Of a stretch of DNA of 64,000 nt, positions 9,466 through 14,153 are shown one piece after another. The notes beneath the pieces are model-generated. The model was not told where the DNA came from. It ran no database searches and was given only the letters and a program-made list of their open reading frames with translations. Source of the DNA: an uncultured Cytophagales bacterium (GTDB taxonomy: Bacteria > Bacteroidota > Bacteroidia > Cytophagales > Thermonemataceae); NCBI GenBank assembly GCA_937911505.1, contig CALEMF010000015.1, positions 172,869-236,868 of the forward strand, read 5' to 3'. The translations under genes were made by a program, and so were the position numbers. Positions within the stretch are counted from its first letter, which is position 1; each line of letters begins with the position of its first letter.

Positions 9466-9549
9466 GGAGGTACGCCAACGTGGGAGAGTTGGAGCAGTCT
9501 GTAAAACTGCTGCCTTCGGGCTGAGTAGGTTCGAATCCTACTACCTCCA
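9466..9549 (+). tRNA. tRNA-Tyr (GTA)
   Basis: A class II tRNA of 84 nt. The acceptor is GGAGGTA/TACCTCC, the anticodon stem GCAGT/ACTGC with loop CTGTAAA (anticodon GTA), the variable arm is long (TGCCTTCGGGCTGA) and the T-arm is GTAGG/CCTAC. CCA is not encoded; the discriminator is A. First member of the array. Confidence 0.95.
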
Positions 9550-9551
9550 CG

Positions 9552-9687
9552 AAAACAGTGCCGTAGAGAAGCGTTACTTCGACTTTTAATCCGTGGGTTG
9601 TGGGTTCGAGTCCCACCGCGCTCAAAAGGAGCGTGTAGCTCAATAGGTAGAGCAACGTACAGTCGCTTTTCGTTTGTTGCCTGTTTT
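9552..9687 (+). ncRNA. Structured RNA element 1: outer stem enclosing a permuted tRNA-Lys
   Basis: The outer ends pair as AAAACAG (9552-9558) with CTGTTTT (9681-9687). After a bulged T the pairing continues as GC (9560-9561) with GC (9679-9680). A second helix is GAGAAGCG (9566-9573) with CGCTTTTC (9664-9671). Between the helices lies an asymmetric internal loop (CGTA against GTTTGTT). Element 2 at 9981-10108 has the same helices and loop with three compensatory pair changes, so the fold is supported by covariation between the two copies. The enclosed core is the permuted tRNA-Lys listed next. Function is unknown; it may be a processing signal or a protein-binding stem. Confidence 0.75.
9581..9657 (+). 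tRNA. Circularly permuted tRNA-Lys (TTT): 3' half then 5' half
   Basis: Positions 9581-9624 read as tRNA nucleotides 30-73: anticodon loop CTTTTAA, stem TCCGT, T-arm GTGGG/CCCAC with TTCGAGT, acceptor CGCGCTC and discriminator A. A 4-base spacer AAAG follows. Positions 9629-9657 then read as nucleotides 1-29: acceptor GAGCGTG, TA, D-arm GCTC/GAGC with loop AATAGGTA, A26 and ACG. Joining G29 to G30 gives one complete canonical tRNA-Lys (29 + 44 = 73 nt), with no base missing or duplicated. The acceptor forms seven pairs, one of them T·G, and the anticodon stem is restored as ACGGA/TCCGT. Maturation would need cleavage at both junctions and ligation. It could instead be a non-functional fusion of two tandem genes. 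Confidence 0.8.
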
Positions 9688-9690
9688 TAT

Positions 9691-9762
9691 TCGCCCATAG
9701 CTCAGCGGTAGAGCTCCTCACTTTTAATGAGGAAGTCGTAGGTTCGAATCCTACTGGGCGAA
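9691..9762 (+). tRNA. tRNA-Lys (TTT)
   Basis: A normal-order cloverleaf of 72 nt: acceptor TCGCCCA/TGGGCGA, D-arm GCTC/GAGC, anticodon stem CCTCA/TGAGG with loop CTTTTAA, and T-arm GTAGG/CCTAC. Its body differs from the permuted tRNA-Lys just upstream, so the two are not simple duplicates. It starts with T1-A72, which is uncommon. Confidence 0.93.
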
Positions 9763-9766
9763 CAAA

Positions 9767-9824
9767 GGAGTAAAGGAAAAAGGCGCCTAAAACCGTACAC
9801 TATGCACCTTTTACGCTTTACTCC
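9767..9824 (+). ncRNA. Structured hairpin between tRNA-Lys and tRNA-Phe
   Basis: GGAGTAAAG (9767-9775) pairs perfectly with CTTTACTCC (9816-9824). Inside it, AAGGCGC (9780-9786) pairs with GCACCTT (9804-9810) with one mismatch, leaving a 17-base loop. No T-run follows, so it is not an obvious terminator. It has no sequence match to elements 1 and 2, but fills the same kind of position between tRNAs. Confidence 0.5.
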
Positions 9825-9829
9825 ACACT

Positions 9830-9902
9830 GTGGAGGTTGCCAATGTGGTCAAGGCACTGGGCTGAAGCCCCAGCAATGTAGGTTCGATTCCTACCCTTCA
9901 CA
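9830..9902 (+). tRNA. tRNA-Phe (GAA)
   Basis: Acceptor GTGGAGG/CCTTCAC (one G·T), short D-stem GCC/GGC with an 11-base loop containing GG, anticodon stem CTGGG/CCCAG with loop CTGAAGC (anticodon GAA), and T-arm GTAGG/CCTAC with TTCGATT. The discriminator is A. The anticodon is clear, but the D-arm is somewhat irregular. Confidence 0.85.
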
Positions 9903-9907
9903 CACAC

Positions 9908-9979
9908 GGTCGGTTGGTCTAATGGCTACGATACTTGACTGTCTATCAAGTGATACGGGTTCGATTCCCGTACCGACCG
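9908..9979 (+). tRNA. tRNA-Asp (GTC)
   Basis: Acceptor GGTCGGT/ACCGACC, anticodon stem CTTGA/TCAAG with loop CTGTCTA (anticodon GTC), and T-arm ACGGG/CCCGT. The discriminator is G, as expected for Asp. Confidence 0.93.
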
Positions 9980-9980
9980 C

Positions 9981-10108
9981 AAAAAGAGTGTCGTAAAGAA
10001 GTGTTACTTCGTAATTCGTCAGGTTAGAATGTCTGCATTGGGTGCAGGAAGCAGTGGGTGAAAGCCCACAGAAATATGTCATTCACTTTTCGTTTATTAC
10101 CTCTTTTT
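9981..10108 (+). ncRNA. Structured RNA element 2: same outer stem, cloverleaf-like core
   Basis: The outer helix AAAAAGAG/CTCTTTTT (9981-9988 with 10101-10108) continues past a bulged T with GT/AC. The second helix AGAAGTG/CACTTTT joins 9997-10003 to 10084-10090. The internal loop keeps the size and most bases of element 1. The core has three hairpins: ATTC/GAAT with loop GTCAGGTTA (D-arm-like), TCTGC/GCAGG with loop ATTGGGT (like the anticodon arm of tRNA-Pro TGG, with T33 and G37), and GTGGGT/GCCCAC closed by a GAAA tetraloop instead of a T-arm. There is no canonical T-loop, so it is tRNA-like rather than a standard tRNA. A permuted reading (acceptor-like TCTGCAT/GTGCAGG) also exists but is less canonical. 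Confidence 0.7.
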
Positions 10109-10112
10109 ATAC

Positions 10113-10185
10113 GAGGAAGTTCGTCTAAGGGTAAAGATGTCTGATTGTGATTCAGAAGATACGGGTTCGACTCTCGTACTTCCTC
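10113..10185 (+). tRNA. tRNA-His (GTG)
   Basis: The extra G at position -1 (10113) pairs with C73 (10185), the tRNA-His identity pair. Acceptor AGGAAGT/ACTTCCT, anticodon stem TCTGA/TCAGA with loop TTGTGAT (anticodon GTG), and T-arm ACGGG/CTCGT with one G·T. It begins only 4 bases after element 2. Confidence 0.93.
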
Positions 10186-10191
10186 CTAATT

Positions 10192-10263
10192 TGCTCCATC
10201 GTTCAATCGGAAGGATACTTGGCTACGAACCAAGAGATGGGCGTTCGAATCGCTCTGGAGCAA
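10192..10263 (+). tRNA. tRNA-Arg (ACG), second type
   Basis: Acceptor TGCTCCA/TGGAGCA, anticodon stem CTTGG/CCAAG with loop CTACGAA (anticodon ACG), and T-arm GGGCG/CGCTC with TTCGAAT. The discriminator is A. The body is clearly different from tRNA-Arg(ACG) at 3130-3203 although the anticodon is the same, which suggests separate origins. Confidence 0.9.
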
Positions 10264-10268
10264 CGCAT

Positions 10269-10339
10269 TGCCTTCTCGTCTAGCGGCAGGACGCCTCCCT
10301 TTGAAGGAGAAGAGGGTGGTTCGAATCCACCGAAGGCAA
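10269..10339 (+). tRNA. tRNA-Gln (TTG)
   Basis: Acceptor TGCCTTC/GAAGGCA (T1-A72 is usual for Gln), anticodon loop CTTTGAA (anticodon TTG) with stem CCTCC/GGAGA, and T-arm GGTGG/CCACC with TTCGAAT. The discriminator is A. Confidence 0.9.
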
Positions 10340-10347
10340 CTCAATTT

Positions 10348-10430
10348 TGCGGAATGTCAGAAGTGGTTATCTGGGTGGTCTCATAAGCCATTGCCTTTGT
10401 GCTTCGTGGGTTCGATTCCCACTTCCGCAA
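10348..10430 (+). tRNA. Class II tRNA with anticodon CAT (Leu-like body)
   Basis: 83 nt with acceptor TGCGGAA/TTCCGCA, D-stem CAGA/TCTG, anticodon stem GTGGT/GCCAT with loop CTCATAA (anticodon CAT), a 14-base variable region (TGCCTTTGTGCTTC) and T-arm GTGGG/CCCAC with TTCGATT. CAT normally belongs to short-variable-arm tRNAs (Met, or Ile after lysidine modification). The long variable region and its TGCCTTTG sequence are typical of Leu tRNAs. Three bases instead of two lie between the acceptor and D-stem. Amino-acid identity cannot be told from sequence. Confidence 0.7.
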
Positions 10431-10447
10431 CAGAATAATGAACGTAA

Positions 10448-11020
10448 ATGATGGAAGTGTATTACAATGGTTGTTTGGTGATTTTTCGTACTTTTTATGA
10501 CGCGCTCTTTTGTGAGCACGCTTTTGAGACCTTACAAAATGAGGTGAAGTGGTTAAGTAAGCACTATCACAATGCTGATGGAAGCACGGTATACTTACCA
10601 AGGTTAACGGCCAACTATGGAGAGGAGTCCTATGATTACTCAGGGCTTACCTTCCAGCCCGTGCCTTGGACGCCTTTCTTAACCCGTCTAAAAGCAGATG
10701 CCGATGCGCTAGCAAAAGAAAACTTTAATGCACTAGTGCTTCAGTTATACAGAGATGGGAAAGACCGCGTCGGTTGGCACGCTGATGAGGACGCTTGTGT
10801 GGGGCAGAATCCTAGCATCGTTTCCATCTCGTTTGGTGAGACGCGTAGCTTCTGGCTTAAAGAGAAAACAAGGGCAAGCGAGGTACTAAAACTGACCCTA
10901 CAAGCAGGCGATGTGGTACTGATGCAAGGAACCTTACAACACGCGTATTTGCATAAAGTCCCTTCAGAAGAAGAGAAAAGCGCAAGGATTAATCTCACTT
11001 TTAGGAAAGTGATTACTTAA
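10448..11020 (+). CDS. AlkB-family Fe(II)/2-oxoglutarate dioxygenase
   Basis: 190 residues. AlkB-type enzymes oxidatively remove alkyl groups from nucleobases in DNA or RNA. The metal-binding set is visible: H111-A-D113 in GWHADED and a distal His in TLQHAYLHKV (H165 or H169). The 2-oxoglutarate-binding Arg lies in RINLTFR near the C-terminus. NALVLQLYRDGKDRVGWH and PSIVSISFGETRSFWL are typical of the short bacterial AlkB homologues like human ALKBH2/3. The gene starts 18 bases after the last tRNA of the array and lies 126 bases before rtcB, so it fits an RNA-repair island. A role in tRNA repair is inference; it may be a DNA repair enzyme. Confidence 0.9.
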   Translation: MMEVYYNGCLVIFRTFYDALFCEHAFETLQNEVKWLSKHYHNADGSTVYLPRLTANYGEESYDYSGLTFQPVPWTPFLTRLKADADALAKENFNALVLQLYRDGKDRVGWHADEDACVGQNPSIVSISFGETRSFWLKEKTRASEVLKLTLQAGDVVLMQGTLQHAYLHKVPSEEEKSARINLTFRKVIT

Positions 11021-11130: not shown

Positions 11131-11146
11131 CTACAAACACGTGAAT

Positions 11147-12598
11147 ATGAAATTAAGAATTAATAATAGTGAATTAAAACCCTACTTTCAGCACAAGGAG
11201 CTGCTTAAAAAAGCAGGCCGCTTGGCGAAAAAATTGCTGAAAAGCCGTCAATATACCAAAAAAGAGGTACTTGCGGTCTATGAGCAACTGGTACAGACAC
11301 CAGAGGACTACGTAAAGGACGAGGTTTTTGGAGAAATTGCTGAACTGACCTTAGCATTGCAACCCATTGTACCTGAAAAAGATATGCCTTTTTATTCCTT
11401 ACGAGACGAGGCGCTGCCTTATCAAGTATTTGGAGAGGCAGGGATTGGAAAAAATGCGTTGGATCAAATGGAAGTTGCCATGAAACTACCCGTTACGGTA
11501 GCGGGTGCGTTGATGCCCGATGCCCATCAAGGCTATGGCTTACCGATTGGCGGTGTGTTAGCCACGGAAGCAGATAAAATCATTCCCTATGCCGTGGGGG
11601 TAGACATTGCGTGTAGAATGAGCTTGAGTGTGTTTGATATAGAAAGCACCTATTTGGAGCAACGCAAACCCACCTTCAAGAACTATTTAGGCGAGCATAC
11701 TTACTTTGGTATTGCGGCTAAGAATGATCAACCGTTAGAAGATGCGATCTGGGAGCATCCTGGCTGGAATACCATTCCTTTTGTAAAGAGCTTGCTAGCC
11801 AAGGCACAAAAGCAAATTGGGACGTCTGGTACAGGTAATCACTTTGTAGAGTGGGGTTTTTTAGAAGTGCTAGAGAACAGTGCCGATTTGGCGTACTTAC
11901 CAAAAGGAAAATACGTGGCTTTGCTTTCTCACTCAGGCTCAAGAGGGTTTGGAGCCAATATCGCCAACCATTACACCCAACTTGCCCGCGAGATGACAGG
12001 GTTACCGAGAGAGGCGCAACATTTAGCCTGGCTCGATCTAGCTACTGCTGAAGGGCAGGAGTATTGGATCGCTATGAATCTAGCAGGCGCATATGCACAG
12101 GCTTGTCATCAGCAAATTCATCGGCGGCTTGCCAAGGCATTAGGAAAGAAGCCTTTACTCACGATAGAAAACCATCATAATTTTGCTTGGAAAGAGCAAC
12201 TTCCTAATGGACAAGAGGTGATGGTACACAGAAAAGGTGCTACGCCTGCACATAAAGGTGAGTTAGGGATTATTCCCGCCTCTATGCTAGAGCCAGGCTT
12301 TATCGTAAGAGGAAGAGGGGAAAAAGCGGCCTTGCAATCTGCTTCACACGGAGCAGGTAGGGCGATGAGTCGGCGGAAAGCACGCAATACCTTCACGATG
12401 CACGAGATTAAGAAGCAGTTGCAGCAGAAAGGTATTAAGCTGATGGGCGGCGATGTAGACGAATCACCAGGTGCTTACAAAAATATCAACGAGGTAATGA
12501 ATGCGCAGCAAGATTTAGTGGATATTCTCGCAAGGTTTATTCCTCGAGTTGTACGAATGGCCGAAGCTGAGCAAAACAAGAAAGGTTGGGAGGGGTAA
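11147..12598 (+). CDS. rtcB: RNA ligase RtcB
   Basis: 483 residues. RtcB uses GTP and Mn2+ to join RNA 2',3'-cyclic-phosphate or 3'-phosphate ends to 5'-OH ends, and is the tRNA-splicing ligase of archaea and animals. The active-site set is complete: C156 in GVDIACRMS, H232 in GTGNHFVEW, H262 in LLSHSGSRGFG, the His pair 343-344 in ENHHNF, and the guanylated H401 in SASHGAGR. I preferred ATG 11147 over GTG 11141. The gene follows the tRNA array and alkB on the same strand and precedes a PcfJ-like gene. No RtcA, archease or RtcR is encoded nearby. The neighbouring permuted tRNA is an obvious candidate substrate, but this is inference. Confidence 0.97.
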   Translation: MKLRINNSELKPYFQHKELLKKAGRLAKKLLKSRQYTKKEVLAVYEQLVQTPEDYVKDEVFGEIAELTLALQPIVPEKDMPFYSLRDEALPYQVFGEAGIGKNALDQMEVAMKLPVTVAGALMPDAHQGYGLPIGGVLATEADKIIPYAVGVDIACRMSLSVFDIESTYLEQRKPTFKNYLGEHTYFGIAAKNDQPLEDAIWEHPGWNTIPFVKSLLAKAQKQIGTSGTGNHFVEWGFLEVLENSADLAYLPKGKYVALLSHSGSRGFGANIANHYTQLAREMTGLPREAQHLAWLDLATAEGQEYWIAMNLAGAYAQACHQQIHRRLAKALGKKPLLTIENHHNFAWKEQLPNGQEVMVHRKGATPAHKGELGIIPASMLEPGFIVRGRGEKAALQSASHGAGRAMSRRKARNTFTMHEIKKQLQQKGIKLMGGDVDESPGAYKNINEVMNAQQDLVDILARFIPRVVRMAEAEQNKKGWEG

Positions 12599-12797: not shown

Positions 12798-14153
12798 ATG
12801 TTAGCACATACACTTCATAAGCTACAAGGGAGTCATTTATCTATTAATCAAGTTTTAAATAAATGCTTTATGGGAAATTTACATAAAACAAAAAAAGTCC
12901 CACTATATATTAAAAAAGAGAAAAGTCTCAGTATTCGTAGAGAAAAAGAGCAAGCGTACATACAAACCTTAAAAATTCCGAAGCGTGTTGAAAAAGTCTT
13001 TCTGAAAAATATCGAACTCATTTTTGCAGGAAAAGCTTATCAAGCCTCGCCTGTTTTTGAGCAAATCGAGAAAGATTATAAAGCACTCAAAAAACTCACA
13101 AATTGTAAGGAACAGTATGTATTACTGCTTAAAACATTGTATAAAAAGAGATGTACCGCTTTGTTGGAGAGCAAGCCCTACGTGGCTGCTTTAAAACACT
13201 TAGCTGAACACAGCGCCGTATTTGTACGATCTGTAAACACTTGGCAGCGTAAAAGTCATAACGTAGAGAAGCAGTTTACCTCTTTGGTAGAACACTTGTT
13301 CGCACGTTACAAGACGCCCAAGTTTTTAGTTACCGCTTGGCTAGGTGATCAAGCGCACTACAGAGCATGGTACATCAATATTGCCCAAGGTATGTCGGTA
13401 AGGAAGCAACCTTCCCTACCTTTTGTGATGACGAAAAAGATGGCGAAGTATTTCTTGCAAACGCCCGATTACTACACCATTCCTGAAGCACTTCGCTATG
13501 CGCAAGTACTGGGCTTGGGAGGAAACAAGCGGTTGGTGAAATACATTAATGGCTCTTATCTAGGAAGAAATAACTTTGAGGAAGAATACTTCTGGAGCCA
13601 GATGATTCAGTTTTTTGTGAAAGCAGGGATGTTTGATTACGAGCGTGTTGAAGAAATCGTCGATTATGTTCGTGAAGAACGAAGAACGAACCAAAACTAC
13701 TCCCTAAAGGGACGTACGATTAACGCCTTGTTGCGTCAGACACAAGCTTGGCATGAGGAAATGAACCGCCGCTGGAATCGTGGAGGAACTTATATCTGGA
13801 AAACCTGTGGTATTGAGGGCTTTGGTTTGGAAGAGGGTACACTACAACCTCCAAAAACTTACTGGATTCGTGAGTTGCTTTCTTCTAAGGAACTACAAAT
13901 GGAAGGGAAAAAGCATAACCACTGTGTGGCTAGTTATGCACTTGGTTGTTACCAAAAACGTTGTGCTATCTATTCTCTTTATGTAGAAGAGTTTGCTTGT
14001 GAAACGTCGCTCATTACCATCGAGGTAAGCTTGGTAGATAAAACGATTGTACAAGCCAGAGGAAAGTACAATCGCTCTATGAAGCCCAACGAGCGACGTA
14101 TTGTCGCTTTGTGGGCAGCACAAGAAGCGTTGACTATTTCTAAGTGGGTATAA
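12798..14153 (+). CDS. PcfJ-like protein
   Basis: Up to 451 residues; an internal ATG at 12870 is an alternative start. The N-terminal two thirds are helical and basic. The C-terminal part carries the pattern of PcfJ-domain proteins (ELLSSKELQMEGKKHNHCV, CYQKRCAIYSLYV, VQARGKYNRSMKP). PcfJ was first noted on conjugative plasmids and its molecular function is unknown. Conserved His and Cys residues in KKHNHCVASYALGCYQKRC could form a metal or catalytic site. It follows rtcB on the same strand after 199 bases. A partnership with RtcB or the structured RNAs is only suggested by position. Confidence 0.75.
   Translation: MLAHTLHKLQGSHLSINQVLNKCFMGNLHKTKKVPLYIKKEKSLSIRREKEQAYIQTLKIPKRVEKVFLKNIELIFAGKAYQASPVFEQIEKDYKALKKLTNCKEQYVLLLKTLYKKRCTALLESKPYVAALKHLAEHSAVFVRSVNTWQRKSHNVEKQFTSLVEHLFARYKTPKFLVTAWLGDQAHYRAWYINIAQGMSVRKQPSLPFVMTKKMAKYFLQTPDYYTIPEALRYAQVLGLGGNKRLVKYINGSYLGRNNFEEEYFWSQMIQFFVKAGMFDYERVEEIVDYVREERRTNQNYSLKGRTINALLRQTQAWHEEMNRRWNRGGTYIWKTCGIEGFGLEEGTLQPPKTYWIRELLSSKELQMEGKKHNHCVASYALGCYQKRCAIYSLYVEEFACETSLITIEVSLVDKTIVQARGKYNRSMKPNERRIVALWAAQEALTISKWV

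Follow-up and report, generated by a model that had tools for sequence, protein, structure and literature searches.

Y RNAs that mimic tRNAs are reportedly widespread, as Chen is said to have described in 2014. With regard to the closest described system, YrlA is an RNA of 90-150 nt whose basal stem holds Rsr; its tRNA-like domain looks like the D, T and acceptor arms, serves as a binding site for PNPase and is a substrate for modification by DusA and TruB (PMC8394870). The structure of Salmonella YrlA (PDB 6CU1) is available (PMC8394870, PMC11472068) and superposes on tRNAs in circular permutation (PMC11472068). In the Salmonella RNA repair operon rsr-yrlBA-rtcBA, Ro60, Y RNAs and RtcB are encoded together, and it was suggested that the tRNA-like domain of YrlA might competitively inhibit an anticodon nuclease (PMC7790460). 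Permuted tRNA genes, in which the 3' half comes first and a short linker follows, have been described in algae and archaea (PMC3978253, PMC3218864).

Here, we analyzed a locus in a 64,000-nt stretch of DNA (the window) from an uncultured Cytophagales bacterium of the family Thermonemataceae, in which an earlier note had seen a circularly permuted tRNA-Lys gene next to an RNA ligase. Based on sequence comparisons, we read the locus as a permuted tRNA-Lys carried in a Y RNA frame, which would act as a Ro60-bound mimic offering an anticodon arm and would not be spliced (probability about 0.82 for this reading as a whole). Its identity as a Y RNA that mimics tRNA is very likely, and the more specific function of an anticodon decoy is put forward as a tentative hypothesis that we consider rather less likely than its opposite.

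The permuted tRNA-Lys and its frame

The arrangement described in the earlier note was confirmed by the coordinates: the 3' half of a tRNA-Lys (nt 30-73, 44 nt) occupies positions 9581-9624, the linker AAAG follows at 9625-9628, and the 5' half (nt 1-29, 29 nt) lies at 9629-9657. When the halves were swapped back and rejoined, a whole tRNA of 73 nt was obtained, which ARAGORN named tRNA-Lys(ttt) with anticodon UUU; the completeness of the tRNA and the break at 29/30 were thus read correctly. The acceptor end (G1-C72 and A73) fits a real tRNA-Lys. In native order, ARAGORN called no tRNA in 9551-9690.

The permuted tRNA lies within a larger unit (Table 1). The frame detector matched positions 9560-9681, where all eight S1 pairs are formed and the flanks are conserved in relatives, as is expected for the basal stem of a bacterial Y RNA. 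The family consensus of this frame is GYCGUA-stem-WUACUUCG...stem'-GYUURUURCC, and the S1 stem covaries, its letters differing among relatives while the pairs are kept (pairing being also a criterion of the detector). Positions 23-88 of the Rfam YrlA model (RF02553) align to 9592-9660 with 45.7 bits, and this alignment contains the D-, T- and acceptor arms in the permuted order of a YrlA-like module. The 3' frame also resembles the end of the Rfam YrlA consensus, 'cUuGucGcc'. Because the gathering score of 69 bits is reached neither by the window element nor by any of the eight family genomes, the window RNA was classed as a Y RNA variant outside RF02553. Scans for sigma-70-like promoters and for terminators gave results close to chance (1 versus 1.1 and 2 versus 1.0, respectively), and a DNA search of the family genomes with the whole element returned a mixture of frames and tRNA genes.

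Table 1. Features at and around the permuted tRNA-Lys, in window coordinates
Feature	Position	Strand	Basis
tRNA-Tyr(GTA), second copy	9466..9550	+	
Y RNA 1, whole unit as folded, from outer stem to U-rich 3' end (about 138 nt; transcript ends predicted)	9551..9688	+	Fold, frame detector
5' frame: GCCGTA, S1 strand 9566-9573 (GAGAAGCG), TTACTTC	9560..9580	+	Sequence, family consensus
Anticodon arm pieces: nt 30-31, loop CUUUUAA, nt 39-43	9581-9582, 9583-9589, 9590-9594	+	Sequence, family scoring
T-arm	9600..9616	+	RF02553 alignment, element parse
Acceptor hairpin: 3' strand 9617-9623, A73 9624, AAAG 9625-9628, 5' strand 9629-9635	9617..9635	+	Sequence, RF02553 alignment, parse
D-arm (9638-9653), nt 26, nt 27-29 (ACG, 9655-9657)	9638..9657	+	RF02553 alignment, parse, arm scoring
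3' frame: S1' strand 9664-9671 (CGCTTTTC), GTTTGTTGCC 9672-9681	9664..9681	+	Frame detector
tRNA-Lys(TTT), intact, second copy	9691..9763	+	
tRNA-Phe, second copy	9830-9903	+	
tRNA-Asp, second copy	9908-9980	+	
Y RNA 2: like frame, other insert without standard T-loop	9981..10108	+	Detector score 7; fold z -2.48
tRNA-His, -Arg(ACG), -Gln and -Met, second copies	10114..10431	+	
AlkB-like 2OG-Fe(II) oxygenase (PF13532)	10448..11020	+	
RtcB RNA ligase (PF01139)	11141..12598	+	
PcfJ-like protein (PF14284)	12798..14153	+	

The predicted fold of the whole unit (-45.0 kcal/mol, z -2.65) pairs CGACU with AGUCG and has no anticodon hairpin. When the full permuted tRNA was enforced, the energy was -39.5 kcal/mol, a gap of 5.5 kcal/mol in an energy model that omits tertiary contacts. 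This is what would be expected if the RNA were an ordinary YrlA-type Y RNA in which the anticodon-like loop is coincidental or a leftover without function, an explanation that we consider unlikely and that is weighed below against the relatives.

All eight tRNA genes at 9466-10431 duplicate isoacceptors encoded elsewhere in the genome, and some of this second set have altered loops, such as tRNA-Asp, which has CUGUCUA (as in the related genome G003) where the main copy has CUGUCAC. The genome contains two intact tRNA-Lys(UUU) genes, one in this array and one elsewhere. The RNA ligase mentioned in the earlier note is real, but it is not a direct neighbor: it is an RtcB gene about 1.5 kb downstream, separated from the permuted element by seven tRNA genes, the second frame-bearing RNA and the AlkB-like gene. 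The relatives of this RtcB place the host near Cytophagales. Y RNA frames lie between the genes of the divergent second tRNA set, and RNA-repair genes come after it; the locus looks like an island of RNA repair and back-up tRNAs. Similar arrays were observed in G003 (L228) and, in a shorter form, in a second relative, G004 (L230); that of G003 is accompanied by Ro60, an AlkB-like gene, an RNA ligase (PF09414), an ATP-grasp enzyme and PcfJ. PADLOC, run on eight proteins, matched only the oxygenase of the window (CARF_2OG) and, weakly, one protein of G003 (JetD). Other odd tRNAs were noticed elsewhere in the genome of the window (contigs C84, L224, and C54, L222), including Leu with short variable loops, Ser and Phe, the last of which resembles the second-set tRNA-Phe of the window.

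Location in a tRNA array is also what would be expected of debris from two tandem tRNA genes, a deletion having left the 3' half of the first beside the 5' half of the second, which the earlier note had named as the alternative. This source is contradicted by the relatives, in many of which the same architecture recurs inside the conserved frame with matching acceptor strands. We rejected it on account of the conservation and covariation of the flanking frame, and its probability appears negligible.

Association of the frame with Ro60

The genome of the window contains two TROVE (Ro60) genes, on contigs C17 and C45, and a Ro60 search of the contig of the window (C15) gave no match. Allowing at most one mismatch, the 5' motif of the frame occurs at seven sites in this genome, two in the window and five directly downstream of the Ro60 gene on C17. 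The association with Ro60 that is expected for a Y RNA was thus found at the level of the genome, the window copy itself having no adjacent Ro60. Among eight genomes of the family, three (that of the window, G003 and G004) have both Ro60 and the motif and the other five have neither. Since the one-mismatch pattern read backwards also matches four of the eight, this statement rests on matches with zero mismatches, which are found in the same three genomes.

A survey of 291 genomes of the order gave the same picture. Ro60 (E at most 1e-5) was detected in 70 genomes and the motif in 71; 65 had both, five Ro60 alone and six the motif alone, which means that the motif was found in 65 of 70 genomes with Ro60 versus 6 of 221 without it (Fisher p 2e-51). 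The backwards pattern matched 8 of the 291 genomes, so the six with the motif alone may be due to chance. In a wider sample of the phylum, 19 of 395 genomes contained the motif, comprising six of the same order, ten elsewhere in the class and three outside the class; the last are at chance level because the backwards pattern matched 12 of the 395.

We also measured the occurrence of complete frames near the genes concerned. In the 29 best-scoring Ro60 loci of the order (the genome of the window apart), 76 frames were found in 26 loci, versus six in reversed and two in shuffled sequences. Over 80 RtcB loci from titled records the detector was noisy when all scores were admitted (79 frames, compared with 36 in reversed and 18 in shuffled sequences), and later counts were therefore restricted to scores of at least 5, with one element of G004 admitted at score 4. 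At this threshold frames were present in 13 of the 15 RtcB loci with Ro60 (including Hymenobacter, Pedobacter, Mucilaginibacter and Dyadobacter) versus 3 of the 65 without it. Such a link between the 5' motif of the covarying frame and Ro60 would be expected for a Y RNA rather than for a permuted tRNA gene. Of the earlier proposal of a permuted tRNA gene in a bacterium, the geometry stands, and the gene reading appears very improbable.

Anticodon arms among the relatives

Among 208 distinct frames, 88 could be parsed into a T-arm followed by an acceptor hairpin and then a D-arm, and 120 could not be parsed as a permuted tRNA. An earlier classifier had counted 75 of the same frames as permuted; 29 had a T-arm and an acceptor hairpin without a D-arm, 29 were 'D before T', 11 had a T-arm only and 64 had no T-arm. 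It mislabels several permuted elements as 'D before T', and the permuted count is that of the later parse. Scoring of the anticodon arm requires 24-28 nt before the T-arm. Two of the 88 elements were left out as duplicates and 19 of the remaining 86 for segment length, leaving 67 distinct elements, the window element included.

A whole 5-bp anticodon stem was found in 48 of these 67 elements, among them that of the window, with the nick at 28/29 or 29/30. The frame side supplies two or three nucleotides of the stem (nt 30-31 or 29-31), the remainder being provided by those after the D-arm. Shuffling of the segments gave a mean of 4.2 complete arms (maximum 10, 400 rounds), and dealing the 5' halves anew gave 12.3 (maximum 21). 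The claim that the break points match better than by chance is thereby borne out. In a non-redundant set, complete arms numbered 47 of 65, versus 11.9 when dealt anew. The combination of U33 and R37, neither of which was used to choose the geometry, was present in 47 of the 67 elements versus 9.1 after shuffling, and the 28 distinct anticodon stems show four or five pair types at each of the five positions. Two complete arms with a parse score under 15 were set aside, leaving 46 elements. Once rejoined at the nick, all 46 were recognized by ARAGORN as tRNAs with the expected anticodon, compared with 10 to 18 when halves were dealt anew; the elements having been preselected for complete stems, this contrast weighs more than the 46 of 46.

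The complete elements span 11 families of the order, in addition to named Hymenobacter and one record of Cyclobacteriaceae. Their anticodons correspond to Lys, Gln, Pro, Arg, Asp, Phe, His, Met, Ile, Gly, Thr and others, and two are UUA, which stands for no amino acid. The loop is identical in every letter to a real tRNA loop in 18 of the 46 elements; of the 33 distinct loops 8 are identical, versus a mean of 1.84 and a maximum of 7 in 2000 null rounds. An element of G003 that likewise sits within a tRNA array (L036) has the same lower stem as the window element (ACG/CGU) with the loop UUG, and the lysine anticodon itself is therefore not kept there.

These data bear directly on the explanation that the window RNA is an ordinary YrlA-type Y RNA. 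In its favor, besides the lowest-energy fold, 19 of the 67 scored elements lack a complete arm, and a hold-out set gave a weaker result than the order: its 21 loci, taken from the class and phylum beyond the order, yielded 27 new frames, of which seven were parsed as permuted and five could be scored, and in this small set two of five had complete arms and four of five U33 with R37. It is opposed by the excess of complete arms far above both nulls, by the differing pair types at all five positions, and by frames with short inserts that bear an anticodon-like hairpin alone. Among 50 distinct frames with inserts of less than 60 nt, the loop lengths of hairpins that the conserved UUCG (plus 0-2 nt) closes show a peak at 7 nt, and 12 of the 50 have such a loop with at least four pairs versus 2.3 in shuffled sequences (maximum 6, 30 rounds); the loops include CUGUUAA, CUUUUAA and CUGUCAC. 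No such hairpin with three or more pairs was found in 34 of the 50. In 178 frames with long inserts, the 7-nt-loop hairpin was seen 37 times versus 13.9, and a 9-nt loop was also raised (30 versus 13.9).

A second alternative is that the locus is a true permuted tRNA gene, in which RNase P and RNase Z would trim the acceptor loop, a nuclease would remove the frame, and RtcB would join nt 29 to nt 30 to give tRNA-Lys. The perfect rejoined tRNA, its lysine-type acceptor end and the RtcB gene downstream are consistent with this. Against it stand the tie between frame motif and Ro60 and the two intact tRNA-Lys(UUU) genes of the same genome. In the family at large, the first pair and N73 match the isotype of the anticodon in only 4 of the 37 complete elements with a reference, and dealing anew gave 4.4. 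Acceptor loops of 2 nt occur in three of the 46 complete elements, and CCA follows N73 in just one. As acceptor identity is uncoupled from the anticodon, fitting it no better than when dealt anew, a functional permuted tRNA was rejected as the general reading of the family. Maturation by a ligase, as the earlier note had implied, is unsupported, although for the window element, whose acceptor end agrees with lysine, it keeps a small probability.

Some further insert types were observed. In one element of G004 (L230, 3383-3483, frame score 4), the insert is an unpermuted tRNA-Val(UAC)-like domain that ARAGORN calls a tRNA, and the CUUCG of the frame itself forms one acceptor strand. Another class, GGGGAGGA...T-arm...GCCCC, lies beside Ro60 in several genomes (L165, L174, L184, L191, L130 and L136). 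In one genome (G641, contig C22, 35028-35604; L257), the 5' motif occurs nine times, seven of them spaced by 68 bases, a pattern that points to short frame-bearing RNAs in tandem. ARAGORN also takes 11 distinct RNAs with the frame for tRNA genes (28 calls when repeats from overlapping loci are counted; L001, L106, L118, L170, L188, L194, L216, L217 and L218). Because of these 11, public genome annotations probably list some frame RNAs as odd tRNAs, a point to be heeded by annotators.

Proposed role and comparison with known systems

If the window RNA is a Ro60-bound mimic as proposed, its parts may work together as follows. It could be cut from the transcript of the tRNA array, as is suggested by its abutting tRNA-Tyr and tRNA-Lys. 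The two ends of the frame, S1 and S1', have the potential to pair as a stem, which Ro60 would hold. Between these ends the sequence runs from the upper part of the anticodon stem, with its loop, through the T-arm and the acceptor hairpin closed by a short loop to the D-arm and finally the lower part of the anticodon stem; given this order, the nick at 29/30 would be the point where S1 branches off. Proteins that read tRNAs might then be recruited or distracted by the tRNA body and its UUU loop; they could include those reported for YrlA, namely PNPase and tRNA-modifying enzymes, and here possibly also enzymes that cleave anticodons or repair tRNAs. In a broader and more speculative form, which we consider possible although doubtful, the Y RNAs of Bacteroidota would be a Ro60-tethered repertoire of anticodon decoys, with complete permuted tRNAs and short-insert forms displaying the loops of many isoacceptors, drawing off or capturing anticodon-cleaving enzymes and passing damaged tRNAs to RtcB-type repair, beside an array of back-up tRNAs. 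A complete anticodon arm that varies even within one genome turns the vague notion of a tRNA mimic into a testable question, namely, which protein reads the anticodon.

Compared with the permuted tRNA genes of algae and archaea, the window element likewise has its 3' half first and a short linker, but it sits in a Ro60-linked frame, and the acceptor ends of its family mismatch the anticodons. As in the Salmonella operon, Ro60, Y RNAs and RtcB occur together in several relatives, whereas in the genome of the window Ro60 and the RtcB of the window are on separate contigs, with frames accompanying both. The titles and abstract openings searched, a scope outside which the main papers lie (Chen 2014, Wang 2018, Sim and Wolin 2018), describe no anticodon arm in bacterial Y RNAs. 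The closest likeness is to YrlA: a basal stem joins both ends, T-arm, acceptor hairpin and D-arm are in permuted order, the 3' frame is similar (cUuGucGcc versus GYUURUURCC), and Ro60 (here by genome association) and an rtcB neighborhood are shared. On the other hand, the 5' frame of the window-type RNAs has a strongly conserved UACUUCG, several such RNAs with different anticodons occur in one genome, and the window copy lies in a tRNA array away from Ro60. Finally, in the Rfam consensus of YrlA only 'CUA' separates the basal stem from the lower anticodon-stem strand, whereas in the window RNA the whole loop and the upper stem are inserted at this place; what is new here relative to described YrlA is that the whole anticodon arm is also present.
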